Positions 28,555 to 64,000 of a stretch of DNA of 64,000 nt are shown here, in pieces. Below the pieces are notes generated by a model. It did not search any database, had not been told where the DNA came from, and saw nothing but the letters and a program-made list of their open reading frames with translations. A program made the position numbers and the translations under genes. Numbering within the stretch: the first letter of the stretch is position 1; every line of letters begins with the position of its first letter. The stretch comes from Eleginops maclovinus (lineage: Eukaryota; Chordata; Actinopteri; Perciformes; Eleginopidae), in contig NC_086368.1 in the NCBI RefSeq assembly GCF_036324505.1, forward strand, positions 16,452,378 to 16,516,377. Direction: 5' to 3'.

Positions 28555-28644
<90 letters not shown>

Positions 28645-28775: not shown

Positions 28776-31700
28776 ATGGAGAGAGCTGTGCTGCAAATCA
28801 CCCTCTTTGGGCTGCTGCTGGCTTTGGCTGCGACACAACCGAAAAACGTGAGGACACTTAACTTAATATAACTGAGCATGCTGCTGCAATGAAACTGAAT
28901 CTATTGAATACATCAGTTTAGTAGGACCATCTAGGGATTTTTTGTAATTTAACAATGCAATGCACAGTCAAAATCATGTTATTCTATGTGTGTGAATCAG
29001 TGGCAGCAGGGGCATCTTTCTCCAGGGGGGAGGGCAATACCGAAATTTAAGCAAATATATGCACAAAGTAACAACATATGTCATATTACAACGCAGGGCT
29101 AGCTCAAATGCACTGCAGAACTTGATACAGTCTAGTATTTTAGAAAGGATGTGCCTGTTTTTGTCAACCTCATTATTATGCTTACTGATCCCTATCCTGT
29201 AGCTTTCAATGAGTTGGACAGCTATTTTTTATTTCCCAAACATGGCTAGTCCCATAGCATTTTCCATGTGGACTCTAGTTTGTTCCTGCTTTTAGTTTTT
29301 TCTGATATGCGCTTAAACCCTTATGTTGTGTTCGGGTCTGCCAAAACCCGTTTCAAGTTAAAATGATATAATACAACAAGTTTGAATCAACAACAAATTT
29401 GACGTAATCGCTCTCAACACCTCCCCCTGTTCGCTGATTGGACCGATAGAATTCTGAGTTTCAGTAATCGTACGTAATGAGTTCTTGCTATAGTAATATA
29501 ACGCATTACTTCTGAAATTTGTCGTACGATCGCTTGCCAGTTCACACTTCACAACTCGCTCGGGAGTCTTGAAGTCGTTGTGGTGTGCACGCTACGCGAT
29601 TGAACGGCGACAGAGGGTCACACACTACACGATTTGTCACCAGTTGAAATCCCCGAGGAGTCTGTCTGGTCTCCAAACTACATTTTGTCACGAATACACG
29701 CGAGATGTTTTACCTAGAAACTGTCAATAAGTTACTTTGCTTAAGCTTGTTAGCACATCAGCTAACGTTAACTTCAGTGAATTGTTTAGCCTAGCTACAA
29801 CTTTACAGTTCAAAATCAGGTTTCAAACAGCTGTGTCGACTTGTTGTGTTGGACAACGCTTCTTTTTCTTTTTAGAAAGTTGTGCAGCTCCTCCCGGGCT
29901 TTTCCTCACCCCGTGTCTTGCGCTCTCATTGGCTGTAGCTCGTGGGCGCACCCATTACCAGGCACAACCCTTTTCACACTACAGGATTTGGACTCTCCGA
30001 CAGGTCCAGATATTTAGCTTGCTAGAGATCTGTCGGGCGTCGAGGACGAATCGGGGAGGCGTCGGGGAGTCTCTTGAGCAGTTCACACGACGATCCGACG
30101 CCGACTGCCGAGCGGCGATTTAACGCCGATTTAGTGCCGACTCGTCCCGGAGCTCCAAAATCCGTCTGGGAGCGGCCGATTGGGCTAAAAATCGTGTAGT
30201 GTGAACTTGACATAACTGGCCCTAGTTGAATTTTAGTTGAATACCCCTGCCATAGAGACTCGTTCATATACAGAAGGTTACAGGGCCGTGCAGAGGCCCC
30301 ACTAACATATTATTAATAACAAACAGCGATGTCATGTTACCGGTATCAAATATTATTTACCCCACTTAAACGGAGCATGAGTTTAATTTCTAGCTCTTTT
30401 CCTAATTTTCAGCATACTGTCAGATAAATAGATAGCTTTAATTACTGAGCTGCAATAAACTACATTTTTGCATTTAAAGCCATACTTTTTCGGTTATGTT
30501 GGTGAAAGTAACAAAAGTAACGCAACAGTAGTGTAATGCATTACAGTTCAGAGACAGTATTAATGTAATGTAACTTATTACTTTAAAAAGACAGTAATAA
30601 GTAATATACTGTATAACATTTTGGAGATAAGTTGCCCATCACTGGTAATATAATGAGTGAATTTATGTTAAATATGGTGTGCCTAAACTATGTATTTACT
30701 CAAATGTACTTACTGGCAATGCCACACCAAAATGGAAAGATAATGTTCAGAGGAGCTGAGCTGACATGTGACCTTCACCTTGAACAACTGAAAAATGACC
30801 ATTCCCAGAACAGGAAGTGACATCATACCCCAATCTGAGAAATTACTCTGTCAAAATAAAAGTCACTATCAAAAATATATTCCCCGTGACATCACAATAG
30901 TCATTACTTTTGAGTGTTTAGGTTAAATCATGGGTCAAAATTGACCCGCGAACACCATGAACGGAAACGACTTTCGAACACAACACAAGGGTTTAGTCAC
31001 TCAAACCTGTCTGGGTCCCTGCTGGGTTTGATCCTGACATTTGAAAACGGAGGCAGGGGAAGCAAAATTCAGCACTGGCGTGGCTACAGGTAGTTAGCCA
31101 AGCCTTCTTTCTAAACCAGCTCCTTGAAAAAGAGCACGTATACAGCCTTCCTCTGTCTGTCTTCCCTTTTCTCCGACAGAAACAGGAATCCCATAATTTT
31201 TATTTTATAACAACACTCTCAAATCAGCATTTCTTGGACAAATGATAAATAAAATAAAACTTTCAAAAATATTTTTTGTAAACTTTTTTTTGAAAATTCA
31301 CATTGGGGGGGGTCACATTTTGAGCATAAAAGAATAGGACCCCATGATATTGTTTATCAAACTTTAGGCTTAAGACTTGGTGATGTTGCGGTCATGGAGT
31401 AATGGGAGTCATTGTGACATCAAAACTAAATAACAAGAGGGGTGTTTCTGCAGTTCGCCATCCACTATTAGTTTTTCACGTGATCTTTGGTCAGCTTATC
31501 TCCAGCCAGCGTGATTAACCAAACCATTTACTTGTGAAATGTTCCTCCTGCTGTATTTGTTTAGGAGGACTGGGACATCTACAGCTTTCACATCAACTCC
31601 ACAGTGAGCAGTCGTTATGCAACCACTGTCATCACGAGCCGCATGGCCAATCGTATGGACGAGTCAAAGGAAATAGAGTTCCACGTCCGGATTCCCAAGA

Positions 31701-33330
31701 ACGCCTTCATCAGCAAATTCAGAATGTGTGTTAAGCAAACATATTTACAGGAATTTGCACAGAAATGATTTGACATCACATAATCATAAAGAAAATATCT
31801 GGCATACGCATACACGGCAGAATACGTATATAAAAACACATTTACCTTTTTCTTCTTCAGGTTTATTGATGGCCAAGTGTACGATGGCGTTGTGAAAGGT
31901 AAAGAGAAAGCTCAGCAGCAGTACACTGAGGCTGTGTCCCGTGGACAAAGCGCCGGACTTGTCAGGTACAACAGATCCCTTTTTTGCCACGTCTTTTATT
32001 TTGTATTTGGTATAAGAGCTGTGTGTTTCCTCTGTAGAACAAAGGAAAATACATTTCTGTATTACCTAAATGTTTGCATTTATGTGGAAAAGTATGGCAA
32101 GTTAAACATAATTTCGGTAAGATCTTTCAAATGAAACAATCTGAGAAGGACATATTCCCCTTTGGTTGAACTAATGTAACACATACCCAGTGATTAGAGT
32201 TTATAAACACAGGTAATACTTTTTTTAAATGGTCACAAGACAGAGGGGGTAACCACTGTTTTAATGCAAGGTTGATCTTATAGTTCTGTAGGGAGGACCC
32301 TGGAGGAATTTAAGACCTCTGTGACTGTGGCTGGTCACAAAAAGGTCACCTTTGAACTCACATATGAGGAGCTGCTGAAACGCAGGCTTGGAAAGTACGA
32401 GCTGCAAATCCACGCTCGACCAATGCAGCCTGTGAAAAACTTTAAAGTGAGTCTTGAGTGATGTATTCAGGCAAACATTGCAGCGGGAAAACATGTTCCA
32501 TGTTCAGTACTTCTAACTATTTTAATGTATTTCATTCTGCCAGGTTGATGTGTACATTCATGAGAAATCTGGCCTCAATTTTGTTGAGGTTAAAGGAGGA
32601 CTAGCCCTGGCTGATGCCATCAACAAAACACATGCAGACCATGAGGTACATCATGCAGTGATTAGAACTTTTGTATTTAATTATGAATTATATTTAACCA
32701 TTTAGCTACATATACAGCTCCGGAAGACCACTCCAAATGTTTCTTAAATCTTAATCTCTACATATGTGGCATACCCTTCTAGTGTTTGTTGAATTTCAAC
32801 ACAGAGAAAAATTGTCAGTAGTTTATAGAATACAATAAAAAATAAAAAATCATTCAACTCAAAGACATACCTATAAATAATAAAACAAGAGAAAATGATT
32901 ATGCTGAAGTGGTCTCTTAATTTTTTCCGGGCTGTATAATGGCATTGTAAATGATACATTCTGTCATTGGCTCATGCTTTTACATTTTTATATATCTATT
33001 GTTAACGCACTTTTTCAACAGTTTTCGCTTTCTGGTGTGATGTTAAACTGCATGTTGTTGTTCCAGTATTGTGAAGCAGAGAATCATTTTCAATCATATC
33101 AAATTTGACAAAAGGCAGAGGACTTTTGAAGAATAAAACATGTTCAATCAACTTCTGTGTCAATAAAAAGTCTGTAAAAATCTTCTTCATCCTGTTTCCA
33201 GGCATGGGTGAACTTTTACCCAACAGAGGACCAACAGAAAACGTGTGACAGCTGTGGAAAGCAGGGTATGAATGGAGATCTGGTTATTGTTTACGATGTC
33301 AATAGGGACAGCGGACTGGGAGACATTAAG
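28776..33330 (+). CDS. ITIH exons 1-6: signal peptide and VIT domain
   Basis: Exon 1 encodes a signal peptide ([19 protein letters not shown]) with context CCATCATGG. Exons 2-5 make the VIT domain: [20 protein letters not shown], the [15 protein letters not shown] block, [16 protein letters not shown] and [18 protein letters not shown]. All these match ITIH heavy chains. Exon 6 ([11 protein letters not shown] to [11 protein letters not shown]) leads into the vWA domain; CDSCGKQG within it is a local cysteine pair. Confidence 0.9.
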
Positions 33331-36300
33331 GTACAGCAATAGTTATTTTTATGGAATCATTTAAATGGTCTATTGTTTTTTATTAAAACAATACCAAACA
33401 TACAACAAACAAATATTTAACCATCACCTGTTGGTTCAACAATATTTTGTAACAATCAAACTCTCTTTTTTCTTCCCCCAAGACTTCAGCAGGGTACTTT
33501 GTTCATCACTTTGCCCCAACTAGTCTTACCCGCATGTCAAAAAATGTTGTCTTCTTGATCGATCAAAGTGGCTCAATGTACGGCAAAAAAATTCAACAGG
33601 TACAGTAATTGAAGAGTGTGAGTGTGTGACATATTGTTCATTTCAGTAAGACTGAACTCTTTATTATATACACGGACACAAATTAAACACAACACATTAC
33701 ATTATTTTATGCTTGAATTAAACTTTTGATTTGTTAATGATATTTTTTGCACAGACCCGGATTGCCTTAATCCACATCTTGAACGACCTGGCAGAGGATG
33801 ACCACTTTGGTCTTATCACCTTTGATGGCAGCGTTTTTTACTGGAAACGAGAACTCGTTCAAGCCAACAAGCAAAACTTGGAGAGTGCCAAGACATTTGC
33901 AAGGAATATTCAAGAAAATGGAGGTAAAGTTTTTAATTAAAATGTTATGAAGGGATGAAAACAGAACGGTGATAATGACATGTTTTATTTATTTTTAGCC
34001 ACAAACATCAACAGTGCAGTGTTGGAAGGAGCCCGTATGCTCAACGTACATCACAGAGAAGATTCAGCGTCCATCCTCATTCTTCTCACTGATGGAGACC
34101 CAACAACAGGTTACAATAAAACACTCTTGTACATAAACACAAACCAACACTTCAACAAAATGTCACAAGGACCCCTTGGGACACAGTCCATCATTTAAAA
34201 AATAATCTCATGCAGTTTTTTTCTCAATATCTCCTCTGCAGCTAGTCACAGGATAGTTGTTGGATTGGAAAGTCTGAGTGGAATGGTTTTATTTAATGAC
34301 ATTTCATTTGTCTTTGCAGGGGTGACAAATCTTGAACAAATCCAGTCAAATGTCAGAGCGGCTATAATGGACAAATTCCCACTCTACTGTCTCGGTTTTG
34401 GTTTTGATGTAAACTTTGAGTTCCTTGAGAAGATGTCGCTACAGAACAATGGTGTGGCACGACGGATTTATGAAGACTCTGATGCTGATTTACAGCTGAA
34501 GGTATTTACGATTAGTTGCTCTAGTTGTAAATGTTATTTGATGCATTTCCATACAAAATGATAATGGTTGGAAGTGAACATTTATACGTTGTCAACAGGG
34601 TTTCTATGAAGAGGTGGCCACTCCTCTTTTGCTCAATGTGACTATGAGCTATAATGGTGGCACCAATCTGACGCAGACTGACTTCAGTCAGTATTATAAA
34701 GGATCTGAGATTGTGGTGGCCGGTCAGATTACTGACAACGACATTGAGACCTTCACTCCACAAGTCGTGGCAATTTCGGTAAGAATTGCTCTGCACTGCA
34801 CACCATCTATAATCTTCTGAAAGGTTAGTGAAAGTTCCTGTGTATGTGCTGACACAACACTTCATTTGGGCTTTGACAGAGCACTAAAAAGTTGACGTTT
34901 TCTAACTCCAACGGCACCGTGGAGTCCACTGGAAGAGAGTCTGCCGACCACATCCAGAGGGTTTGGGCCTACCTCACAGTCAAACAGCTTCTGGAGAAAG
35001 AGTGAGTGTCATGTCGACCATCATTTTTCTTCCTTTCTCTTCGTTAGATTCAGACACAAGTATTTATCTATTTGGAATGAATTTACAGCTCTTCCCAGTC
35101 CATACAGCTTCAAAACTCAAAGGCAGGCCTATGTCAGGAAGACAAGATCACTCCCTACCTGTTCATAGTTTTTGTCTCCTTTTTGTTTTTCTTTCTCTTT
35201 TTAAATATATGTATCTTTTATAAAAAAAAACTGTTCTGACATTTGTAGCAAACATAGATATACGGGATACTGTATTTGAAGTGTATTGAATTGGTAATTT
35301 GATGCTGAATGTTTTTTATTTTTTGCAATTAAAAAAACAAGACATTTTCCTTTAGGTAATATAAAATATCCAAACTGGAAACATTAATGTAGTCAGTATT
35401 TGTACATATAAAGTTGGCCACAAAGAGTAGGCAAACTTCAAAATACACAGTATATTAATTATTGAAACAACAGGTATTTTATTTGACAGAAGTAAACAAA
35501 GAATACTTCTCATTTCTAGTCGATTACAGTGGACAGAAATGACGATAATTGTATCAGTTATAGCAGGGGTGCCCAACCTTTTTTGAACCAAGATCTACTT
35601 TTAAAGTTGATAGTGTGTTGAGATCTACCAAGCCATATCGAAAGCCATAGCGTAGCTCCACAATTAATTGTGCACCTATATAATAACACACTTTTCTGAC
35701 ACAAAGATCAAGTTTTAACAATAATAATACATTGAAGTAAATTTACGCCGTGCAAAGAATAAGCACAAGTAGGCCTAGGACTGGCCCGTAACAACACAAC
35801 AACATACAACCCAATTAACACAATGCCTAATTTAAGTTGGAAAAGTGGTTCTCTACCTTAGTGGGACTTCTGGCACTGAGAGGAAGAAGCTAGTGTCTCA
35901 TAGTACAGACAGTAGGAGCTGAGTGCCAGCCGTAAGCAGGCAGCAATGTGGTCATCAGTCATGGTGGATCTGTATTTTGACTTAATGATTTTCATATGTG
36001 AAAAGGCAGACTCACACAAATATGTTGATCCAAAAAGTGCAGTCAAATTCTTTGCAGTTTGTCTGAGGTTGGGGCACTTCTCTTTCTGCATTAGATACCA
36101 GAATTGGACATTTGTGTCAGGTGTAGCTCTTGATTTGAGCTCAATGTCATTATTTGGTGTGAGGATCTCTTTCTCAATAGCACCGCTATCCAGGTTGAAG
36201 AGTGAGGCCACTTTGGACGTTATACAATTCACATCTATATTTCCCCAAATGGAAAACTGAGAAAACTGACAACAGGCTCAATGGATGCAAAGTCAGCAAA

Positions 36301-39300
36301 GCGCCTGTCAAATTCTGACAAGATGCTTTGCACTTGATCATCATAATGTGCACTCTCAAGCTCCGCACAGTCTTTGCCCTGACGCTTAGGTTCTGTGTCC
36401 ATGTGTGGAAAGTTCCGCATATCACACTGTTGCAACCTGCTTGATAGCAGCTGCAACTTGCTTTTAAAAGGTGTTCACGGAGCTGATCATGTTGATGATG
36501 TGTTTGTTCTTACCCTGCAGCTCTAGATTCAAGTTATTGAGCTTGTCAGTCAGATCGGTAAGAAAGGCTAAATCCAAGAGCCACTGACTATCTTCTAGCT
36601 GTGCATATTCAGCATGGTTTGAACATTTCAGAAATTCTTTAATTTCGGGCAACAATTCAGAAAACCGTTCCAGAAATGTACCTCTGCTGAGCCACCTTAC
36701 GTCTGTGTGCAGCAGCAGATCTGTGTGTTCTGCACCGGTCTCCTCCAGTTGCGCACGGAATAATCACCTCTGCAGACTCCTGGCCCGAACAGAACAGGCA
36801 ATCTTGTTAGCCACATCCATCACGTCTTTCATGTTTAAAATCTTCCCGCACAACCCTTGCTGGTGAATTATACAATAGTAATTCAGGAAATCCGGGAAAG
36901 ATTCAGACTCTACTGCACAATCCAATGAACCCAGCAGTACGTCCAATCATTGCTAGAGCCCCATCGGTTGTAATGGAGATGAGTTTGAAGAGGGGCAACT
37001 TGCTCTTACTAACGAATTCCATAAAAACCTGAAAAATATCTGTGCCTCTTGTGTGCCCTTTCAAAGGCAAAATGGTCAGCAGCTCTTCTTTTACACTCAT
37101 ATTGTCGAAAACCATTCTAATGAACACACATAGCTGAGCCACATTCATTGAATTGCAGAGAAAAACACTCACGTGTCAATATCAGTCCTCAATTGCTGTT
37201 CAACATCCTCCGCCATTCCCTCGCATCGCTGAGTAATAATTTCTTGATAGCTGCACATCCTGAATAGCAGACACAATCTCCTTTCGATTTTTAAAATCGG
37301 CAAAAAGCGCATCTGCGGCTTCCATGAACGCTTCTTTCACAATCTCACCCTCCTTGAAAGATTTCTTTCCTTTTGCAAGAACACGACAGACACGATAAGA
37401 AGCTATGGTTGCAGCCTTACTCGTGGGAATTGGGCCTGGTAAAAATGGTGCTGCTAGCTGACTTTTCAATTCCTTGACTTTTCGGGCGCGCAGTGGTGAT
37501 TTAGCTGGGAAGTTTGTATCGTCTTGTGGACCGTCTTCAAATGCCGCTCCAAATTCCCTTTCTTTGGTAATGCCCATTTGCATTGCAGATAAGACAGATG
37601 GACTTGGCATTCGAATACACGAAAAAATAATCCTCCTCCCACTGAATGAAAATGATAAGTTTTAGATTTTTTAGCTTCTGCCGCCATGGTAGTATCCACT
37701 CGCTCTAGTCAAGCTTCTCGCGCCCTTCCGAGTCCTTAGTTAGAACCTAGCAACCATACCATGCGCGCGCAGATAGAAAGAAGCGCGTGTTTTTTGATTA
37801 TGCCTGATCTACCTTACTACAGCTGTACAAATCTACACACTGCTTCTCGCGATCAGCAGTTCATTGTGCTTATTTAAGATGTTTTAAGTTGGAAGTTTTA
37901 ATGTAGGCCTATTTTACACAACAGTAGGAGGATAGCCTACACACAACATTTTCTCGCGATCGACTGGAACTCAGCCCGCGATCGACTGGTAGACCGCGAT
38001 CGACTGGTTGGGCACCCCTGAGTTATAGCCATACTTTACGTTAATTTTAACACTGACACAATTGATCAACTATCATCAAACACCTTTTCAGCACTTGTTG
38101 CCGACAGCAAAGAGTTGACAGTAACTGGGGTAAAATGTGTTGGGGAACATTACTTGTAGGTGAAGCCAAAAAACCACAACAATGGCAAAACGTAAAGTAA
38201 TAATAATCATACTGTCATGTCAACTCACATGTGTAAACACAATTTGTGACACAGGCTGCTGTTATCTGGAGCTGAGAAGGAGAACGTGAAGAAAGAGGCC
38301 TTGGAGCTGTCGCTGAAGTACAGCTTTGTAACTCCACTCACATCCATGGTGGTCACCAAGCCTGTAGGAGAGGACACCGATGTGCTCCATAAACCCAAGG
38401 AAGGAGAAGTTTCACAGAAACACTCATGGCATAAACTTGTTGGTTCTGGTAAGCAACACAAATGTGAACAAAGCAAAGCCGATGCTAAATCCTGTGTCAA
38501 GATTTGTCTTTCAGAGCAATTTAATATATCTGGTCAGTCTAAACAGCATGAATTGATAAATGTTGGTGTAGTCACTATGTATGAATACCGTTAATAGATT
38601 TGATAAGGACAATGGATTCCTTATTGACAGGTTGTTGGTGTGATTGCATGCATTTTTTGTGAAAATAATCCACCATAATCTATTTATTTGAATAACGTAA
38701 TGGTTGGTACATTTGTTTCTTATTCAGGTAATTTAGCATAACCATCAACTCCTAATACTAGTGTATTGCAACAGGTGAGATGATTTAGGTCAGGGGTGTC
38801 CATCTTTTTTCACCGAGGGCCACATACAGAAAAATATACGGAGAGCTGGGCCACTTATAGAGGTGAATATTGCCTCATAAGTAAAATTATAAGCTAGCAA
38901 AATCAATAAAATGTAGGTGAATAATGCGTGGTACTTTAAAATGCATTAAAGAAAAAACAGCCTACATCCCATCTCTCTTTAGGGTTTCATTAATTTTGTT
39001 GGCAGCTCATTCCTTAAAACAGAAGCCTCAGATTGCTTATAATAAGAGTAAATGTGAAGGTTCAATTTCAAGCTTGTTATAGAAATAAGTTATTCGGCTT
39101 TTTTTTATCAACTAAGATTTGTTAGAAAAGGTTTTCAATTGTAAATGACTGAATTTATTTGAAAATTGGGCTCATTAATATATTTTAACATATATACTGT
39201 ATTTGAGAAGTACAATATATGACAAGCAAAAGTTTAATTTGTGGGCCATATTCCATTATACTTTTAGAATTTGCTGAGGGCCGATTCAAAATGGCCTGCG

Positions 39301-42300
39301 GGCCGCATTTGGCCCCCGGGTCGTAGTTTGGACACCAATGATTTAGGTTATTTAAGATGGTTTGGATATGAGAATCCTGACATGACTATTTTCCAGCAAT
39401 GCGACCTAATTTGAAAACATCCAAAACATATTTCTAAGTAAATAATTGTGAGCTTTTGCCAATGTTTTTTTGTCTTGACAGCGGGCAGTGCGAGACTTTC
39501 CCCAGGTAAGACATAAATCTGGACTGGACATAACAGAAACAATATTGATTTATGATTTATATGACGTATTTTAATGAACAACATACATTTATTATTTGCT
39601 GACCAAATGTAATTTACTGTATATTAAAAACTGACAAAGCAGGAAGTTGAAAACGTATCTACAAAGAAGAGTATTTCAAATTTAATTAACAAGTGTTTTT
39701 GTGAATTTATATGATCATCTTTTTCTTTTTAACACTAGCAAAAGGGTTAGCAGGTAAGTTGGACTTATTAATAATAGACTGTCCTTTATTCTCTTTTGCA
39801 TTGTTATTGCAAGCTAACATTAATTTCCTGAGTTTTTCAAACTAACTGCATATTTAATTCACTTTATCACCTTTTCATTCTAGCACTATTAATTAGTTTT
39901 CAATACAATAAGGAATAAATTACACAACATGCACACAGCATACATTTAAATCAGGACTAAATGTTATTTTTTTACATTATGTAAGAAATTATAAGAAACA
40001 CTGTAGTTCATTGGATATCAAGGACTGTGGGGGAGGACGGTTCATGCTTTAGTATTTCAAGTAAATTAAAGCTGCAAGCAGCAATGAACGGGCCTTTGCA
40101 AATCAGCGCACGCCGGGGTACTTCAAGGATCCAGGAACGCGTCTCATAGAACTGCCATCGTCACTGACCGCTACATATCCTCAACCTGATTTGTTCCGAG
40201 CACCACTTTTGTTTTGCAGCAGCGATGAAATGTTTTCCTCACTACATTTCCCTAAACACACACACACAAAATCTCAGACAGACAGACAGACAGACACACA
40301 CACACACAAACAAAACAACACACACAGAAAAACACACAAACACACACACCCACATACACACAGACACAAAAAATAACACAAAAACACACACACACACACA
40401 CACATATATGCATTAAGATTAGTCTAGGGCGGTGGTGGCAAAGTCTATAGGGACTTGGCCTGGGAACTGGAAGGTCACCATTTCAAGTCCTCAAAAGACC
40501 AAGTGCTACCGTGGTGTGAAGGCACCGTTCCCTACACTGCTCCCCGGGTGCCATACATATGGCAGCCCACTGCTCCTAACACTAGGATGGGTCAAATGCA
40601 GAATATAAAATGTCCCCTCTGTGGGACGATTAAGGGTTCCTTCTTCTAAAGACCACAACACACTCTGCATGGCAGAGCTGGACAGACCTGTCACCAGGCT
40701 TGTAATTTCGTAATTTTAGGGGCGAAGCCATTTGGCCTTTTGTGTCACAAATTGTTTTAGGGCACAAAGGCCATTTAGGGAAAAAATTGGATTTGGAGCT
40801 TACAAATAAACAACTTCACTTTCTGATAATAAAAACACACGAATGACATGGAAAACAAATCACTTTTTACTACACTGCACATTGAATAGAGTAGTTTTTC
40901 ATTCAATGTGTGCGGCAAAAAATAAATCCCAACTGGAGCAAAGCGCTCACAGCCCCACTAAAACGTCGTATCATCAGAGCTGATTGACTTTAGTGTGTGC
41001 GAAAAGTGTAGTTATGAAGAGGAGACGAGAGGGCTTAGAGCATAGGCGCCAAATCCGGCCCGCAAACTAATTGTATGTGGCCCGCGAGAGTTTTCAAAGA
41101 ATATAATACGTTTATTATACAGCTATACGCCGCTTTACAGAAGCTCGTTGCCCATAAACTACATGTCCCACAATTCATCTCATTTTGTGACATGCGCATT
41201 GAAGCGACTTCAGTCACTGTCGCGTGAGGCAGTAGTGAGTCACAGAGCTTAATTACAGCCGCACAGCGACACCAAACACGGAGCAAAGTCTGCTTCAGCA
41301 ACCGAGAAAAGAAACACCGGAACCAGAACCGACAGTCGGCTGCTTCCTCACAGAATGTGCTGCTCTGTCAGTCGGCTGTCGCTACGGCTCATTCAGAGAC
41401 ACACATTTAAAAAAAAACTTGCATTACGGTTATTTCCACTTAGGCTATATGATATGAGAAAGATGTGTGGTCTTGACTTGCAGCTTATGAATTAGTTTTC
41501 TCTATATTCAGACGATGAATACTTCTAAGTACGTGTGTAAAGTTTGTGATGGCAGTAGGAAAACTCCCGCGATCGCCGTCTCCTCTCTGTTCCTCCTCAC
41601 CGCCCCCTCCTTATCCCTGAAAACAATGAATGACAGGTGATACACACCAGGGTCTGGAACAGGGGGTTTCAGACTATTCAAATATTGCAAAATTCAAATC
41701 ATAAATACTTAAATAGTGCTTGATCTAAAAAATAATAAAAAATAAGGCTAACTTAATCTCATAAATTCATGGGATTTATTTAACAGACAGAGAAATGTAT
41801 AGGCTAAGTGTACACCCACATACAGTATTTCTGTGTCTACCTGCACCATATGTCAGTGCACAACTATGTGTTAATACTTCCAAACTCATCTTTTGAATAA
41901 ATCGTACAATTGTTGTAATTGTTTGGGTAGGCTAATAACTTAATCTTTACCATCTTTTATTTCACAACATCCCCATGTCAGTCATATAAGAACTCATTAG
42001 CACCGTTCTGATATGATGTTATTATTAATAATCAAATGATGTATACATAAATTAACAGCTGTATGTTATTTGTATCATAACTTTTTCCTTATCATCTTTT
42101 TCTTTTTAACAGATGCCTATGACACGGGAAGCTGTAAGGAAACATTTACACTACTCTGCCCTGATTTTATTTTATTATTTATATTATTATATAACAAACA
42201 TAAAGCATACATTATTTGTCATTAGTAAAAAGTTAAACTAAAACCTAAAAAAAACTGAGCAGAAAAATTCTGGTTTATTTAATGATTATTAGAAAACTGC

Positions 42301-45300
42301 GTGGGAGGTATGTGCTTGAGTATTTCAAAGTGAATTAACAGCTGTTTTGCCATTTGGGTAATAACTTAATCTTTACCATCTTTTATTTCACAGCATCCCC
42401 ATGTCAGTCATATAAGAACTCATTAGCACCGTTCTGATATGATGTTATTATTAATATAATCAAATGATGTATACATAAATTAACAGCTGTATGTTATTTG
42501 TATCATAACTTTTTCCTTATCATCTTTTTCTTTTTAACAGATGCCTATGACACGGGAAGCTGTAAGGAAACATTTACACTACTCTGCCCTGATTTTATTT
42601 TATTATTTATATTATTATATAACAAACATAAAGCATACATTATTTGTCATTAGTAAAAAGTTAAACTAAAACCTAAAAAAAACTGAGCAGAAAAATTCTG
42701 GTTTATTTAATGATTATTAGAAAACTGCGTGGGAGGTATGTGCTTGAGTATTTCAAAGTGAATTAACAGCTGTTTTGCCATTTGGGTAATAACTTAATCT
42801 TTACCATCTTTTATTTCACAGCATCCCCATGTCAGTCATATAAGAACTCATTAGCACCGTTCTGATATGATGTTATTATTAATATAATCAAATGATGTAT
42901 ACATAAATTAACAGCTGTATGTTATTTGTATCATAACTTTTTCCTTATCATCTTTTTCTTTTTAACAGATGCCTATGACACGGGAAGCTGTAAGGAAACA
43001 TTTACACTACTCTGACCTGATTTTATTTGATTATTTATATTACTATATAACAAACATAAAGCATACATTATTTTTCATTAGTAAAAAGTTAAACTAAAAC
43101 CTAAAAAAACTGAGCAGAACAACTCTGGTTTATTTGATGATTATAAGAAAACTGTGTGGGAGGTATGTGCTTGAGTATTTCAAAGTGAATCAACAGCTGT
43201 TTTGCCATTTATGTAATAACTGAATCTTTACCATATTTTCCTTTTGAACAGATGCGCTAGGTAAGACATAAACAACTGCACAGTTCTCACATGACAGATA
43301 CACTATTACCTTACATTTGTTTTAATTATTAACAGTTGTCATTGTATAACATGAATCAATTCTCAATCATGATTATTTCTTGAATTATGTTAAGTAAAAC
43401 AACTAGTGAATGTTTTGTATTACAAAAACTAAAGGTGGAGAGGGACTATTTCAAAGTTAATTAACAGCTGTTTTGAATTTGTATAATGACTTTATCTTTA
43501 TTATCTTTTTCTTTTAACATGCCTTACAGTGCCAGGTAAGATATAATTCCACAACTGCTCACTTCTGACATGAAAGATACATTATTTACTATAATTATAA
43601 ATAGCTGTTATTGTATAACATTAATTGATTCTCAATAATGATTATTTCTTTAAAATTATGTAAAAGAAACAGAAACTAGAAATACTAGTTCATGTTTTAT
43701 AAAACAAAAACTGAAGATGAAGGGAAATGCGTGATTGACTATTTCTTGGTTAATTAACAGCTGTTTTGAATTTTTATAATAACTTTATCAAAATCATCTT
43801 TTCCTTTTCAACAGCTGGTCGTGGTAAGACATAAACATGTGCACTTTATTGACATGACAGATACACTTTATTTACATATTGACTATTTCAAAGTGAATTA
43901 ACAGCTTCATTGAATTTGTATAATAACTTTATTTTTATTATCTTTTTCTTTTAACAGGCCTTATAGTGCCAGGTAAGATATAATTACACAACTGCTCACT
44001 TCTGACATGAAAGATACATTATTTCCTATAATTATAAATAGCTGTTATTGTATAACATTAATCGATTCTCAATAATGATTATTTCTTTAAAATTATGTAA
44101 AAGAAACAGAAACTAGAAACACTAGTTCATGTTTTATCAAACAAAAACTGAAGATGAAGGGAAATGCGTGATTGACTATTTCTTGGTTAATTAACAGCTG
44201 TTTTGAATTTGTATAATAACTTTATCTTTATTATCTTTTTCTTTTAACAGGCCTTATAGTGCCAGGTAAGATATAATTACACAACTGCTCACTTCTGACA
44301 TGAAAGATACATTATTTCCTATAATTATAAATAGCTGTTATTGTATAACATTAATCGATTCTCAATAATGATTATTTCTTTAAAATTATGTAAAAGAAAC
44401 AGAAACTAGAAACACTAGTTCATGTTTTATCAAACAAAAACTGAAGATGAAGGGAAATGCGTGATTGACTATTTCTTGGTTAATTAACAGCTGTTTTGAA
44501 TTTTTATAATAACTTTATCATTATCATCTTTTCCTTTTCAACAGCTGGTCATGGTAAGACATAAACATGTGCACTTTATTGACATGACAGATACACTTTA
44601 CTTACATATTGACTATTTCAAAGTGAATTAACAGCTTCATTGAATTTGTATAATAACTTTATTTTTATTATCTTTTTCTTTTAACAGGCCTTTCTTTACA
44701 GGGTAAGATTTAAATGCACATCTGCATCAAGTATCTCTATATGCAATTATTCAGATTCTTGCTTAACAATACATGTTTTGCATTAAGGAAAAAATGGTTT
44801 ATTTGATGAATATTAAAAACTGAGGGTGGAGGGAGATGAATGCTTGATTTTTTTTCTAAGTAAATTAATAGTTGAATCGTGATTTGTATTGATTATTTAA
44901 TAATGTTATATATTTTATACTCTTTTTCACACATTTGGAGTGACATCCCAAAAATTACATGAGAAGTATTTGCTAAACATTTGAATTGTTCTGCTTGTAA
45001 AGTCAAGCCACAATAAATGAACATCTTTTTTTATTTTCAATTCATCTAAATGTACTGTTTAAGACACACTTGGGGGGATGCAAGCTTATTTACAAAAAAT
45101 TATCATTTCAAAATATTTTACCAACTGTATCTTAAATTAGTGTAATCATCCTTTTCCTTTCAACAGGGTAATGGTACACATCTTCAGCGTTGTCACACAC
45201 AATTGTTTATAATAAAGAATTTCACATACTGTATTTTATGTATCTCACCTGGTCTTGATGAATGTGTTCTACTATTAGCATGAACCTTTTTTTTTTATGT

Positions 45301-48300
45301 ACTGAGCTATAAGCCAACCGAATATGTTCAATTCTAAAATGTTGACTGTTCCTTCTTCAGCTCCAACACATAAAACACCCACAAATGTTGGTCTTTCTCA
45401 AGGTAAACTTATTTTTTGTTCCAAACTTATCCATCATTTGCATTTTGTACAACCACCCTAAAATTCCTTCGAGCTGAGCATTACCAGAGTTTTTCTGCTA
45501 ATTTTGGTTAAACACAAGCACAGAATGAGACAATTTTCTCAGAATGTATGCTTTATGTATATTGTTACACATCAGCTTCACACAGGCTGGACAATGTGTT
45601 TATTCAGTGGTTTGTTTTCAGTTTGGGTGTCTGTATGTGTCAGCTGTGTCAATTAAGGCTTTGTTTAAATGTAATTTACAGATTAGGAAGAGGAATTATC
45701 TACTGAATTTCCTGCCAGCCTTGGGCCGGTAATGATTAACAGTTGAGTTTCTCATCGATGTTAATCATAATCATTTACATAAATACCAAACAATCAACTA
45801 AGATAATTTGGTTTATGCTCACATTTTTCAATAGGTGTGACTCTAAGAGCAAAATAAGAGCTAAAAGTCATTGCTTAACAGTCACAGCTGTATTTGCTTT
45901 GTAAATTAAATATCCAAATGCCATATTAGGACAATCGTTATGAATTAGTTTATAATTCATGGTATCATCATTACCCTAGCGAATAGTGTTTCCTTCAACT
46001 GTGTGAATCTCTGTATTCTTCTCTAGCTCCCGTTTCCAATCGGTTTTTGCTTAAAACTGAGAATCAGTCCCTTCCACTCTGCTTTGATGTCAACGGAGAC
46101 GTACGCCTTAAACTATTACACCATCCCAACAGTGGTGAGTAAAGTTCCTCGTTGTGTCTTCACCGTTTTATTTACATATCTATAAATGCCTAATCGTAAA
46201 GTCCTGTTACAAAAGTGCTGATTATGTTACTGTAGTTGTAAATGGAAATAAGCTGCTTCCTGCCCCCGCTCCTTTAGGGCGTCGCCACGGTAGCGGTGAG
46301 CCAGGGCCGGCCCTGGGCATAGGCAGTATAGGCGAATGCTAAGGGCGCATCCATCCATCGGGGGCGCGGTAAATTGGGGAGAATAAAAAAAAGTAAACTA
46401 TTAATGCTGTTAATACGCCTGCATTGCGTATAGCGCCCATTAGTGCTGCGTACCGGTATGCCGAAAGGGTACTGGACTTGTAAAAAGTTTCGGTTCAAGT
46501 CCGGTTAAAACCGGAACGTCGGGAACTGGTACTTGGACTCGCAAAAACACTAGCACTTACGTATATTTTCCTTTTTATTCTAAACCATCTAAAACCTTCC
46601 ATAGATCGAGAAATTTGCGCTGGGAAAAGACGAAAAACATTGTGTCGGCTTCTGATATGGCGGCCATTACTAAACTCACAAAGTCCCGCAAAATATCGCA
46701 ACTGCTCGCGAGATCTGTGTGACGTCAAGGGAAGAAAGCGATGTGATTGGCTTAGACATAGTGGACAGCGTGGACTGCTGTGGTCGCCATATTGGATATT
46801 TGGTAGTGTAGCTAACTCCTTTGTTTGGTCTACGGCGTCACGGGTCATGTAAACACAATGCCGCGGGGCTTTGAATCCAGTAAGGTGTGGGATCATGTGA
46901 CGAAACTGCTTCTAGATACTGCGAAGTGTAAGGGGCCTTTCATAGTCTAAGCAAGCTACGCGGACGCGAACGCATCGAGCTACGCTTGGAGGGTTTGACG
47001 CGTACTTGCGTAGCAAAACGTGTAGTCCAGATTTTTGTAACGCGACGCAAGCGCAACTACCATTTCACGCCTTTCCGATAGGGGCGCTGATGAGAATTAC
47101 TGTACTTGTGAAAAAGGCCCTCTCACTTGGACTGTTCCGTTTCCCCCCCTTTAGTTTGGATTAGTCCATGTAATGGTTTGGCCCAATATCTAACGTCTCC
47201 GTAGTTGGTGACGAGAGCTGTGAGTTCCTGCTGCTGTATTTCCAGTTTACCTGTGTTAGTGTGCGTCCATTAAGATAAACCACACACACACACACACAAG
47301 CAAATGCATGTAAAGAAAGTTTAATAAAGAAAGAAAGAAGATAACAACGTGATTTACTGTCACTCAATGGTGGATTGGCATCTGGAACATTAGTTTATAA
47401 TAGACGACGGACAAAGTCATCCAGTCTATTTTTCATGGTCCTTCGAGCCGGATCTGATTCATCATTGATAAAGATGTATGCGATGTCAGAAGACCCGAAC
47501 AGTGCGCGTGTCAGGAGGAAGACTACCCTCCCCGCGTACCTGGAAAGCTACGATCTCACAGCCCTCAGGAGAACATCCAGACCTCCACTTCATTCACTAT
47601 ACGGCCACAGGCATGAGGATGAAGAAGCAGAGGAGCATGAAGGAGCAGTGGGTGGTAGGCGTTCACCATCGCCCATCAGTCAGTGCAGCCTTCAAGACCT
47701 TCATACAAGGGATGAATGGAATCCCAAGGATGATGAGTCCACTGAGAAGGTTAAGAAGCCTAGCAAGGAAGGAAAGAGAGCCTTATTCAGTGAGTTAGAG
47801 CTGATACAGATGGAGAACGAAAATCTTCGCAAAGAAAATAAGAACAACGAGTTCAAGATGGAACAGCTGAGTCGCAAGAGTGCCTTTGAAACAGAGCAGC
47901 TACAGCGTCAAGTTTCACATCTGAGTAGTCTGATTCAGACATTACACACAGGCGATTCCCCTGCAAAAGACAGATCAGCCCCTACTCTCCAATCAGAGGT
48001 AAAGGAACAGACCAGAAGAGGAGCATCACCATCACCCCCCAGGATGGAGTCAAGCAGGGAATCACGCCTGAGAGAACCATCACCAGCACTGTCTAGGATG
48101 TCAGAGGCATGGAAGGAATCACATCAGAGGGAACGCTTTCCAGCTCGGCATAGGATGTCAAGGGCAAGTAGACAATCAGATACAAGAGAAACATCTGAAA
48201 GCGAAGATGAAGAGGCATACTGGAGGCGGCCTGCTAGAACTCCACAATCCCGTGGTTATAGCCAGAGGCCCTATAGGCACAGCCAGACACCAAAGTCTCG

Positions 48301-51300
48301 TCACTCTCCGTCTCGATCGCCAAGCCCTATCGGTGGACGGGAGCAGACTTACCGTGGGCCGAAGCCTACTATTCCAGATATGACACAGCCCAGTCCAAGA
48401 GAATTCAGTCGTCTTCGAATAGCTCTTGAAAATCTTCTGCCCAGGCACTCATCAGAAAGGTTCAGATACCAGATCTTAGTTGATCATCTGAAGAACGAAG
48501 AGGCACTCCTGATTGCTGATTCATATAGTAATTCAAGACATCCATATACAGACACAATGGGTGCACTCGACCTCCAATATGGGCAGCCCCACCAACTTGC
48601 CTTGCAGAGGATAGCAGAAGTTATGGATGGGCCCAATATAGCGAGCGCCGACATCAAAGCCTTCAGGATGTTTGCTCTCCGGGTGCGTTCTCTGGTGGGC
48701 ATGCTGGAGCAGCTAGGAAGAAAAGGCAAAGTAGAGTTGGAGTGTGGCTCACATGTCTCCCGGCTGCTATCCAAACTCCCACATGATCTCCGCTCTCATT
48801 TCCGGCGACATACCCATCCACATGTGGTACCCATACCCACTCTCCTTGATCTGGCTGACTGGTTAGAGTTCGAACTCCAGGTACAAGAGGACAACTCTAG
48901 ATTCAGTATCAAGAGCACGATAGAGAAGGAAAATAAGAGCAAAGATCAACAGAGGACCTTCAAGTCAAGAAAGGAGTCCTCCACCGTCCTCCTAAGCACA
49001 GGTGTGTCGCCTACACAGGTGAAGACAACACCGCCTTCTTCTGACACCAGTAAGAAATATTGCCCATACTGTGACAATGATAAGCATTCCTTTAACAACT
49101 GTGCAAATTTCAAGCTGCTTAGCACCACTCAGAAGCAGACCTGGATAAAGAGCAATAACGGCTGTTGGCGTTGCGGCAGGGCACATCGTGCATCTGAATG
49201 TGACCTGAAGATGCGATGCAAGACATGCAACAACCGACACCTCCTTGTTCTGCATGACCTCAATGAGCGGTCTAAAGAGAAATCAGGGAAGGAGGGCAAA
49301 GACTGGATCCAATCCAAGTCAGAGACACATAAGAGCAACACAGAGGAGGTTTTGTATATAGACAGGCCACTGGAAGGACGGAAAGTGCTACTTAAACTGA
49401 TCAAAGTTGTGCTGCGGAACGGAAACAGGGCCATCGAGGCCTATGCCATCTTAGATGATGGTTCCGAACGAACCATCCTCCTCCATGCAGCTGCCCATCA
49501 GCTGGGTCTCGAAGGCCAACCTGAGGAGCTCCACCTGAGAACTGTCCGGCAAGAGCTACAGACTGTTCATGGTGCTGTTGTGTCCTTCACTATATCTACA
49601 GCAGCAGAGCCTCAGCAAACATTCCGGATCACCAGAGCCTTCACTGCTAAGCGTCTGGGTCTAGCCGAACATACTTACCCCGTGCAGAGCCTTCAGAAGA
49701 GATATCGGCACCTACAAGATCTGCCTCTAAAGCCCTTTCAAGGTGTGCGTCCACTGCTGCTGATAGGCTCCGACCACCCGCACCTAATCACCCCGGTTGA
49801 ACCTGTGCGTCTGGGGCCACCAGGAAGTCCAGCAGCTGTGAGGACTCGACTGGGATGGACGCTCCAGGGTCCAGCCCATGGAATGAAGCACTACCTCAAT
49901 GAGCAGCAGTGTTTGTTCACTGCCACCACATCCACTCCACCAGACATCTACAGCCATGTAGAGAGGTTGTGGCAGATGGACACACTGCCCTGGCATAACG
50001 AGAAGCTCAGCACGCGCTCTCGTCAGGATACAGAAGCCATCGCCATCCTTGAGAGCCAAACCACAAGGGTGGAAATAGCCGGAGTATGCCGCTATGCTAC
50101 TCCTCTTCTTCGGATGAAGGACATGCCTCCACTTCGAGCCCCGAAGGAAGCCGTTCTTCCCCAGCTACGGAGCACAGAGAGAAGACTGGCCCGAGAGCCA
50201 GAGAAAGCAGCAGCATACATTGCTGAAGTCAAGAGATTGGTGGAAGCTGGTTACGTCCGTAAGCTACCAGCGGAGGAGGAAGACAACCACACCCGCTGGT
50301 ACATTCCACACCATATGGTGTTCCATAATGGCAAGAATCGGGTGGTCTTCAACTGTTCATTTGAGTATGGAGGTAAGAATCTCAACAAACTCTTGCTTCC
50401 TGGTCCAACACTGGGACCCTCTTTACTCGCAGTGCTGCTACGGTTCAGAGAACACGCTGTGGGTATCAGCAGTGATATTCGTGGCATGTTTCACCAGGTC
50501 AGACTTCAACCACAGGACCAACCCCTACTCCGTTTCCTGTGGAGGGACTTGAAGCGTGAAGAGCCACCAGACATCTATGAGTGGAGAGTGCTTCCCTTCG
50601 GCACAACGTGTTCACCCTGCTGTGCGGTATTTGCCCTCCAAAAACACATCGTGGACCACAGCAGGGAGGGAGATGCCATCAGGGACGCTGTGCTGCAGTC
50701 CTTCTACGTGGACAATTGTCTGAGGAGCATACCTGCTGAGGTGGATGGCAAGGCCTTGGTGGATCAGCTACAAGCTACTTTGATTAGTGGAGGCTTTGAA
50801 CTGAGACAGTGGGCAAGTAATAAAACCTCTGTCATTGCTCATCTCCCACGAGAGATCAGGTCAGACAGTGCAGAAATGTGGATAGCCCAAGGCCAGCTGG
50901 ATGCCCATGAGTCTGCCCTGGGACTGCACTGGCATTGCCCTTCAGATACACTGTCATACAAGTCTCGCCCCTTGGAGCACTCTACTATGACCATGCGCAC
51001 CATTTATCAGGTGCTTGCGAGCCAGTATGACCCTTTGGGTTTTATCGTGCCATATACCACCAGGGCTAAGATGATAGTTCAGCGGCTGTGGGACAAAAGA
51101 CGGGACTGGGACGATCCATCGTTGCCTGATGATCTGTTACGCACCTGGCAGGAGTGGGAGAGCGAGCTTCCAGTCCTACAGACCATCAAGTTGGCAAGAT
51201 GCTACACCAGCCCTGGTATGGATTCCTCAGCCATTCAGAGGGAGATACACGTCTTCTGCGACGCTTCCGAAAGGGCCTATGGCTCTGTTGCTTACCTGAG

Positions 51301-54300
51301 GAGCGAGGCGTCCGGGGGTGATGTTGAAATAGCCTTCCTCAGTGCCAGATCGCGTGTAGCCCCAAAGAAACAACAGTCCATCCCTCGTCTGGAGCTCTGT
51401 GCAGCGCTGTCCGGAGCGCAGCTGTCTAAGGTGCTGAAAGAAGAGCTGACACTCCCTATACATCGAGTGACCCTGTGGACGGATTCTACCACCGTCCTCG
51501 CTTGGCTGCAGTCAGACTCCTGTAGGTATAAGGTGTTTGTGGGAACACGCATTGCCGAAATTCAGGATCTGACCGACAGAGAGGCGTGGCGGTATGTAGA
51601 CACAGCAAGCAATTCGGCTGATGACATCACCCGAGGGAAACTCCTTTCAGAACTCACCGCAGAAAGCCGCTGGCTTCGAGGACCTGCCTTCTTATGGGAG
51701 AAACCAGACCAGTGGCCTCAAGCGCCCATGCAGCCAGCAATCATTGCAGACAGCGAGGAACAAAGGAAAACCATTTTCTGTGGTCTCACCTCTACGGCAG
51801 TCATTCCTCCAGTCCCTGATGCTGATCAGTACCAGACTTTTCATGATCTAGTCAAAGCCACTGCTTTGTCTTTACATGGGCAGGACAGCGCACAGCTTAC
51901 AGCTGACAGTTACAGAGAGGCTAAGAATATTCTTCTTCAGCAAGTCCAACAAGACTGCTTTGAGGCAGACCGTCAGCAGCTCGTGGCGGGTAAGCCTCTG
52001 TCCAGTACCAGTCGCCTCCTCTCTCTCGCACCTGAATTTGATAGCACCTCACAGCTAATACGGGTCGGCGGACGCCTGCGTCAAGCTACTACACTGGAGG
52101 CTGGGGCAATACACCCAATTGTGCTGGATCCTAAGCACAGAATCACCCAGCTCCTCATCCAGGAGTACGATGACCAGCTTCATCACCCAGGCAGTGAGCG
52201 TGTGTTCGCAGAAATGAGGAGGAAATATTGGATTCTAAGAGGAAGAGAAGCCATTCGTCGGCATCAACACCGCTGTGTTCAATGCAGGAAGTGGCGCGGC
52301 CAGCCCGCCATCCCAAGAATGGCGGATCTACCTCCAGCTCGACTCCGCTTACATCAGCCTGCCTTTTACTCCACTGGAGTCGATTGCTTTGGCCCGTACA
52401 GCGTTAAGATTGGTAGGAGAACTGAGAAGAGATGGGGTATTATATTCAAGTGCATGACAACCCGAGCTGTACATTTGGATATTCTCTCTAGCATGGATTG
52501 TGATGCCTTCTTAATGGCTTTGAGGCGGTTCGTGGCACGTCGAGGCAAGCCCTTCGAACTACTCTCAGACCACGGAACCAATTTTAAAGCAGGTGAACGT
52601 GAACTTAGAGAGACCTTCAACTCACTCAGCTCAGACCTACAAGCCCAGCTTGCCACTCAGCAAATTCAGTTCACCTTTAATCCCCCAAGTGCTCCTCACT
52701 TTGGGGGTTGTTGGGAGAGGGAGATAAGGTCACTGAAGCAAGCCCTACAGGTGACTGTCGGCTCTCAATCCCTCTCTGAAGAGGTCTTGCGCACGCTGTT
52801 AATAGAAGTAGAGGGGATCTTGAATGCCAAGCCCCTGGGCTACACTTCATCTGACGTGGCTGACCCTGACCCAGTTACACCCAACACTTTGCTGATGGGG
52901 CGGCCTGACGCGTCCCTTCCTCAGGTGGTGTACCCTGAGTCAGAACTCCTCAGCCGACGGAGATGGCGTCATAGCCAGTTGCTTGCAGATCACTTCTGGA
53001 AGCACTTCATCAGGAGCTACCTGCCAGGTCTACAGGCTCGTCAGAAATGGCACTCAGACCCACCAAGCCTGAGTGTTGGGGACACCGTGATGGTGGTTGA
53101 CCCTCAGCTACCTAGAGCGTTGTGGCCAGTGGGGAAGATCACCCGGACCATGCCTGGACTTGATGGTCGGATCAGAGTCATCGAGGTGAAGGTGGGAGAT
53201 CGCTCCCACACACGTCCAGTGGCAAGAATCATCAGCCTACCCAGCATACCGGATTAGATCGTGTAGACTAAGTAGGTTAGATAGGCCCTTTAACAGGTAC
53301 AGATTTCCTACAGAAATCTGGGGGCGGCTGTGAAAAAGGCCCTCTCACTTGGACTGTTCCGTTTCCCCCCCTTTAGTTTGGATTAGTCCATGTAATGGTT
53401 TGGCCCAATATCTAACGTCTCCGTAGTTGGTGACGAGAGCTGTGAGTTCCTGCTGCTGTATTTCCAGTTTACCTGTGTTAGTGTGCGTCCATTAAGATAA
53501 ACCACACACACACACACACAAGCAAATGCATGTAAAGAAAGTTTAATAAAGAAAGAAAGAAGATAACAACGTGATTTACTGTCACTCAATGGTGGATTGG
53601 CATCTGGAACATTAGTTTATAATAGACGACGGACAAAGTCATCCAGTCTATTTTTCAGTACTGTACTGTACTGCACTGTACTGTACTGTACTAACTCGCT
53701 ATTAACAGATGAAGTACTATAGCAACCATGGCTGACAACAATGCGCGTCTCTGTGAATTAGTTTGTGTGCACCAGCATCTTTATGACACTGCGAGCGCTT
53801 CACATTCAGATAGAAACGCAGTTGAAAATGCACGGCGAGAAATAGCGCTGGACCTAGATATCGATGTTGATACCATAAAAAAAAATGTGGAAGCAGATGA
53901 GGGACTGGTTCGTGCGAGCCCAGAAAAAATGGAAACAGGCAGCAAAAAGTGGCGTGGGGCAGCTGAGTTTCGGCTACCCCGCAATACTTTCTCGTCTGGG
54001 TTGGCTAGCTTAGTTAGGGTGACCAGATTTGAGGTGGCGAAAAAGAGGACACCAGATTTGAGGTGGCGAAAAAGAGGACACTTGCGATTGTTGGGGGGTT
54101 GGGGGAAGCGCCAGTCAATTTAAGTACACGCTTAATGGTCCCAACAGTGAAAACCGGACGTTTTCATGAATTTATAAACCCCCCCCGGACGCTCCGGACA
54201 GGACGTAAAAAGAGGACATGTCCGGGCAAAAGAGGACGTCTGGTCACCCTAGCTTAGTACATCAAGCTGTCGGCGATTCAGAAGAAGCAAAATAAGCACT

Positions 54301-59969: not shown

Positions 59970-63947
<3,978 letters not shown>

Positions 63948-64000
63948 GTAAGTTCAAACTTTTTTTCTTTTTGCAATTTTTTTTTTTTGAATATGGATGA

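Follow-up and report, generated by a model that had tools for sequence, protein, structure and literature searches.

The window analyzed here is a 64,000-nucleotide stretch of the genome of the fish Eleginops maclovinus (contig NC_086368.1, forward strand). It holds an ITIH3-like gene, whose exon model and domains place it at 28776-57089 with an unbroken reading frame, and a region encoding the linker between the two halves of its protein, in which twelve very short candidate exons (microexons) follow one another. The exon model was assembled from 31565 to the stop at 57089. The start exon was located through the N-terminus of P0063, an NCBI model named ITIH H3-like isoform X1 of Eleginops maclovinus, which is 100% identical over 71% of the query and represents a cluster with 8 members. 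The features of the gene, all on the + strand, are as follows.

28776..28847, +: exon with the start codon and signal peptide; the N-terminus of P0063 matches
31565..35001, +: 11 exons encoding the VIT and VWA domains (Pfam VIT 6.8e-33, VWA 3.5e-23; exon model)
38255..38448, +: exon preceding the linker array, ending in phase 1; also in P0063
39482..39505, +: microexon 1, 24 nt, (A)GSARLSP; sequence, in P0063
39739..39753, +: microexon 2, 15 nt, (A)KGLA; sequence, in P0063
42113..42133, +: microexon 3, 21 nt, (D)AYDTGS; sequence, in P0063
42541..42561, +: microexon 4, 21 nt, identical to microexon 3; sequence, in P0063
42969..42989, +: microexon 5, 21 nt, identical to microexons 3 and 4; sequence, in P0063
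43252..43260, +: microexon 6, 9 nt; sequence only
43530..43535, +: microexon 7, 6 nt; sequence only
43815..43823, +: microexon 8, 9 nt; sequence only
43958..43972, +: microexon 9, 15 nt, also readable as 6 nt from an internal acceptor (43967); sequence only
44251..44265, +: microexon 10, 15 nt, identical to microexon 9, also readable as 6 nt from an internal acceptor (44260); sequence only
44545..44553, +: microexon 11, 9 nt, differing from microexon 8 at one base; sequence only
44688..44702, +: microexon 12, 15 nt; sequence only
45361..45402, +: linker exon of 42 nt, phase 1-1; sequence only
46027..46134, +: exon following the linker, without the DPHF motif of the paralogs; exon model, motif check
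56138-56306, 56534-56679, 56813-56897 and 56984-57089, +: four C-terminal exons up to the stop codon; open frames

The VIT domain (113.6 bits) is followed by the VWA domain (83.2 bits), both above their Pfam cut-offs, and by these two domains the gene is assigned to the ITIH family. A sequence-only reading of the window had placed the microexons in the linker of an ITIH gene, and this placement was borne out. On its sequence the gene appears intact, because the C-terminal exons are open and conserved, the C part being 81% identical to Trematomus P0003, and because a poly(A) signal AATAAA lies downstream of the stop codon at 57155 and 57160. A pseudogene was ruled out at the level of sequence, since every exon is open and the C-terminal half is conserved.

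Next, we examined the splice signals of the array. All twelve microexons have a pyrimidine-rich tract plus AG upstream, GTAAG downstream, a length that is a multiple of 3 and phase 1-1, precisely as the sequence-only reading had reported, and they also carry the first letters (CG, CA, AT, TG, CT or GC) and the last letter (G or T) that it had listed. Several symmetric, frame-neutral exons of 36 nt or less would make an array resemble a micro-exon gene (MEG), and all twelve, at 6-24 nt, are of this kind. It had further been claimed that any subset could be spliced in without a stop or a change of frame; across the 8,192 subsets of the twelve microexons plus the 42-nt exon 45361-45402 no stop codon occurred, and together these subsets encode 3,072 distinct segments. 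We then scanned the region 38449-45360 for a [CT]AG acceptor, 6-30 nt and GTAAG, with 300 dinucleotide shuffles as the control. As a result, 14 matches were obtained, namely the twelve microexons and, once within each of the identical 15-nt exons, an inner acceptor that gives 6 nt; all 14 were multiples of 3. The shuffles gave a mean of 0.31 matches (maximum 3), with a mean of 0.10 (maximum 2) for multiples of 3, thereby ruling out a chance origin of the array. The identical scan yielded 1 match (19 nt) on the reverse strand of the array, and 4 matches, none a multiple of 3, on both strands of 1-29000, 46135-56137 and 57500-64000. A guessed acceptor-donor pattern, searched in the genome, had no match. 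With relaxed limits (3-60 nt, donor GTAAG or GTGAG), the scan gave 15 matches in the window, 14 of them multiples of 3, compared with 0, 0, 2, 0 and 6 in the linkers of five paralogs (multiples of 3: 0, 0, 1, 0 and 3), and comparable arrays in these paralogs were rejected. One paralogous ITIH linker (L032, G000:C1:23630500-23632220) has three small candidate exons of 18, 48 and 30 nt, which are possibly real.

The array region itself is repetitive. Tandem Repeats Finder (TRF) and comparison of the units identified two larger repeats.

41933..43239, +: 428-bp tandem repeat in 3.1 copies, bearing microexons 3-5 (TRF)
43437..44695, +: block in two copies offset by 730 bp (microexons 7, 8 and the start of 9; microexons 10, 11 and the start of 12)

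A 293-bp unit in 2.3 copies was also reported by TRF. Between copies 1 and 2 of the 428-bp repeat, 1 of 426 aligned bases is changed and there are 4 gap columns (99.8% identical); copies 2 and 3 differ at 12 of 427 bases (97.2% identical), and the copies at 730-bp offset show 22 differences over 529 compared positions. In a genome search that passes over very common words, a 319-nt unit had 12 matches, all of them within the window at 42050-44725, and a mobile element carrying a microexon is therefore unsupported. The 80 bases upstream of the exons in units 2-12 are pairwise 71-100% identical in gapped alignment. Since two unrelated acceptors of the same gene (45361 and 46027) reach 68-79% by that alignment, homology is shown by it only through the higher values, above all those among units 7-12 and 3-5. 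From neither the upstream alignment nor the 319-nt unit search was a shared origin of microexons 1 and 2 evident. Where microexon 10, the copy of microexon 7, has its acceptor AG, microexon 7 has AT; the following AG leaves an exon of 6 nt rather than 15 nt, still in frame. Microexon 12 is unlike microexon 9 because the duplicated block stops inside that exon. No clean case of exons outpacing their flanking introns, looked for as a sign of selection, was observed. Thus, the twelve candidates of the sequence-only reading all exist, although the majority are tandem copies, with about eight distinct sequences and the identical 15-nt exons also readable as 6-nt exons; twelve independent microexons, and with them twelve independent coincidences, are ruled out. 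On these comparisons the array is a local and partly young structure. Decayed-looking units were also seen: at 42329-42384 and 42757-42812 an acceptor-like module recurs and is followed by CATCCCC... without GTAAG, and near 45165 a tract plus AG carries a 1-nt remnant.

Evidence for use of the microexons in Eleginops comes from P0063, which joins microexons 1-5 precisely at the predicted splice points. Past microexon 5 its translation enters intron 5 and ends at a TGA (43013-43015) that is present in the third 428-bp copy only, copies 1 and 2 having TGC. Intron 5 contains neither AATAAA nor ATTAAA and has two weaker poly(A)-signal variants, CATAAA and AGTAAA. The end of P0063 may be a true transcript end or a failure of automatic annotation within the repeat. 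A protein search with the linker by itself returned P0063 alone. Relatives were retrieved as the best 120 of 2,983 matches (7,999 candidates scored) and the best 120 of 2,170 (8,000 scored), 238 proteins in total with two overlapping. As the entries represent 90% clusters and only the best 120 per search were taken, close isoforms would be hidden among them. None of the 238 contained a peptide of microexons 8-12 or of the 42-nt exon, or a junction peptide over microexons 6 and 7, except for the 5-mer PAGHG in P0106, which stands in a differing context.

We then analyzed the linkers of other fishes. Linkers were parsed in 115 of 120 listed proteins (5 were not parsed). Among 24 proteins chosen from the 120, the mean pairwise identity of the linker was 22%, compared with 86% before and 73% after it. 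Over the 115 parsed linkers, Gly and Pro make up 11.3% and 11.1%, compared with 6.4% and 2.3% before the linker, and 14 of them contain exact internal repeats of at least 6 residues. Exact repeats of 14-20 residues occur in P0069 and P0076 (Centropristis), P0058 (Siniperca) and P0012 (Gymnodraco), as would be expected if linker exons duplicate in tandem in these fishes too.

A survey of models with the same flanks, defined as at most 4 differences over up to 450 flank residues, covered 82 of the 120 listed proteins in 18 species with at least 2 rows, species being assigned from names. Same-flank groups with differing linkers, mostly by in-frame pieces, were observed in 10 of the 18 species, and the remaining 8 had no same-flank group. 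For a count of pairs, 17 same-flank groups were chosen (13 species, 53 proteins). T. bernacchii P0003/P0008 and P0006/P0011, Centropristis P0057/P0069, S. fasciatus P0029 and Acanthochromis P0108 were set aside because they differ too much and could be gene copies, as were three Sander rows, whose linkers are identical. From the cyprinid survey only the Danio, Onychostoma and Chanodichthys groups were kept; carp, Megalobrama, Ctenopharyngodon, Sinocyclocheilus and Phoxinus were dropped, in part as retained-intron-like and in part without special reason, and the parser read 0 Pseudorasbora and Pimephales rows and 1 of 4 Leuciscus rows. Exactly one linker block, at times plus one hybrid residue, separates 39 of the 73 pairs, at least one such pair occurs in 14 of the 17 groups, and the smallest blocks are 1-2 residues. 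These block differences recur across percomorphs and cyprinids. In zebrafish, LOC100003906 isoform 1 (a cluster of 35) and another protein listed as isoform 16 differ by blocks of 13 and 34 residues in the linker, with 0 differences in the 300 residues compared before it and the 150 after it. The comparison with other teleost ITIH proposed by the sequence-only reading thus gave same-flank models that often differ by whole in-frame linker blocks, suggesting cassette-like inclusion in these relatives; microexon skipping in Eleginops is putative.

Linker-variant models (P0094 and P0100) also exist in Acanthochromis polyacanthus. A heatwave liver RNA-seq study of this fish reports 69 differentially spliced genes (PMC8933327), and its section 3.3, where exons are unnamed, places itih3 among the three genes spliced at all three heatwave stages. 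In Atlantic salmon liver, according to PMC8110904, itih3 is among the most highly expressed transcripts. The claim of a combinatorially variable linker therefore holds in part: the inclusion of microexons 1-5 in P0063, the in-frame blocks of relatives and the itih3 splicing in A. polyacanthus (PMC8933327, section 3.3) agree with it, whereas use of microexons 6-12 appeared in 0 retrieved proteins. As for the claim that the system is undescribed, no publication on an ITIH microexon array was recognised among the papers listed in a literature search, which covered the top 20 of 386 and the top 12 of 1,950 papers in its long result lists and few subscription papers, although database isoforms, up to the zebrafish "isoform 16", do exist.

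The relation to known heavy chains was analyzed by motif and profile. The DPHF motif bears the chondroitin sulphate ester; it is absent from the window model and all 238 relatives and present in 5 of 5 Eleginops paralogs. By motif, the predicted protein is not a classical hyaluronan-transferred heavy chain (ITIH1/2/3). The C-terminus of the window model scores 12 bits (E 0.16) against ITI_HC_C (PF06668), whose cut-off is 27; a genome search with PF06668 had no match in the window, and 11 of 24 fish relatives reach E <=0.01. In a comparison that contained no ITIH2 or ITIH3 chain, ITIH4 scored 548 bits and ITIH1 473 bits, the aligned regions being nearly the same, and the alignment of the family profile to ITIH4 runs right through the linker. 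ITIH4 is alike in being a VIT and VWA heavy chain with a linker at the equal alignment position and no DPHF, and we know of no microexon array in it. Its mechanism, described in section 5.1 of PMC10855846, is a cut in the linker followed by non-covalent capture of the protease, and the protease-sensitive linker is attributed there to Pihl et al. 2021. For ITIH4, linker cleavage and inhibition are reported, whereas the fish protein is known here from its sequence.

Further features were observed around the array. Between exon 38255 and microexon 1 lies an interspersed repeat (38779-39343), which recurs next to a paralogous ITIH gene on C20 (24.25 Mb) and close to a locus with a VIT domain on C7. 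A long intron (46135-56137) separates the last four exons from exon 46027-46134 and contains a 1,970-codon open frame at 47345-53257 (+), a candidate retroelement. Perfect TG dinucleotide runs lie at 28557-28642 (43 repeats, just upstream of the start exon) and 62646-62750 (52.5 repeats). The gene downstream (59980-63960, +) looks, by eye, like an IL-17 receptor; a Pfam match sought for one of its exons was not found.

The explanation we consider probable is that an intact ITIH3-like gene encodes the linker between its VIT/VWA half and its C-terminal half by an array of symmetric phase 1-1 microexons, which has grown by tandem duplication and is variable in splicing. Units of intron plus microexon would have been duplicated in tandem repeatedly, and could then be gained, lost, lengthened through acceptor shifts, included or skipped while the protein stays unbroken. 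Such freedom follows from every unit being frame-neutral and no join creating a stop, and it would make the linker quick to change between species and, by splicing, between isoforms. The linker might further serve as a protease bait, so that its variation would alter which proteases cut and are captured. A bait role as in ITIH4 is put forward tentatively; it is drawn from the greater nearness to ITIH4 than to ITIH1, the profile running through the ITIH4 linker, the missing DPHF and the ITIH4 mechanism in section 5.1 of PMC10855846.

The main rival is a neutral spacer, which accounts for most of the same data and which we regard as a serious possibility, of lower standing than the tandem-grown, splice-variable array. 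An unconstrained, disordered linker would tolerate the duplication of frame-neutral exons, these would be spliced constitutively or noisily, and the variety would bring no benefit. The hypervariable, Gly/Pro-rich character of the 115 parsed linkers and the self-repeats in 14 of them agree with such a spacer, as do the three 21-nt exons, which are identical and so add no sequence variety. It accords less well with the recurrence of linker-block differences in both percomorphs and cyprinids, and with itih3 being among 3 of 69 genes spliced at all stages in A. polyacanthus (PMC8933327, section 3.3), a hint of regulation. That the array is dead or partly dead we judge distinctly unlikely. Most microexons would then be unrecognised, transcripts would either stop in intron 5 or pass directly from 38448 to 45361 or 46027, and microexons 6-12 would be relics of duplication that resemble splice sites. 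The stop of P0063 in intron 5, the weak poly(A) variants there, the missing peptides of microexons 8-12 and junctions over 6 and 7 (PAGHG in P0106 aside) and the decayed look of units near 42393, 42821 and 45165 would all fit; however, GTAAG donors, acceptors, frame and absence of stops are kept in all twelve, the C-terminal exons are open and conserved, and intron 5 is without AATAAA or ATTAAA. An over- or under-count of the 428-bp or 730-bp copies in the assembly could be suspected from the near identity of the first two 428-bp copies, and yet it is highly improbable as an explanation: an assembler is unlikely to invent the differences of the third 428-bp copy and of the 730-bp copies, and the distinct microexons 1, 2, 6, 8, 9 and 12 are independent of copy number.

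Several points also weigh directly against a tandem-grown, splice-variable bait array. P0063 documents inclusion, not skipping, and as the sole retrieved model of the gene it is without microexons 6-12 and the C-terminal half. Splicing in Eleginops is read here from the genomic sequence and that NCBI protein model. In the other fishes, 34 of the 73 pairs do not reduce to one clean block, part of the same-flank groups may be recent gene copies, and several carp models resemble retained introns; isoform names there are mostly of the Xn form, which we take to be a convention of automatic gene models. The gene may be orthologous to ITIH3 or to ITIH4, and a bait role for fish ITIH would lean on likeness to ITIH4.

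Vertebrate microexons have mostly been treated as single, conserved, often neuronal exons. Genes of the tropoelastin and collagen type have many symmetric exons, which are larger and mostly constitutive; their repeated frame-neutral exons are like those of the array, and they differ in encoding structural proteins. Bait variants of the alpha-2-macroglobulin type are known to use whole alternative exons and are not known to use microexon arrays. Alpha-2-macroglobulin and thioester-containing proteins resemble the fish protein in being protease-trapping or immune proteins of the plasma type with a bait region and splice isoforms (PMC6650032; PMC7016707), and they are unlike it in not being ITIH. 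The Schistosoma MEGs, as characterized in PMC8293314, contain numerous symmetric exons of 36 bp or less whose omission keeps the frame, giving protein variation, and they too show micro-exon duplication. However, MEGs consist for the most part of these exons and come from a different phylum, whereas the fish array is confined to one linker of a conserved vertebrate plasma protein. Judged from its sequence, the array would behave like a microexon cassette gene, with regulated inclusion in Eleginops putative.

The locus thus presents a plasma-protein gene with an array, expanded by tandem duplication, whose sequence turns over from species to species, and the database isoforms of relatives suggest that the array is combinatorial. 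Genes of this kind may be truncated by annotation, as the end of P0063 within the array warns. As a speculation that we hold to be rather doubtful, the self-expanding array of teleosts would be a splice-diversified protease bait, with many linker variants bearing different cleavage sites and a repertoire rebuilt in each lineage by tandem duplication; taken jointly with this, the bait array would be a vertebrate counterpart of the schistosome micro-exon genes within an innate protease inhibitor. If the array is combinatorial, as those isoforms suggest, it would be a simple way of diversifying a secreted protein with no need for receptors or gene clusters, and through it one could ask directly whether the linker of the ITIH4 type is tuned as a protease bait.

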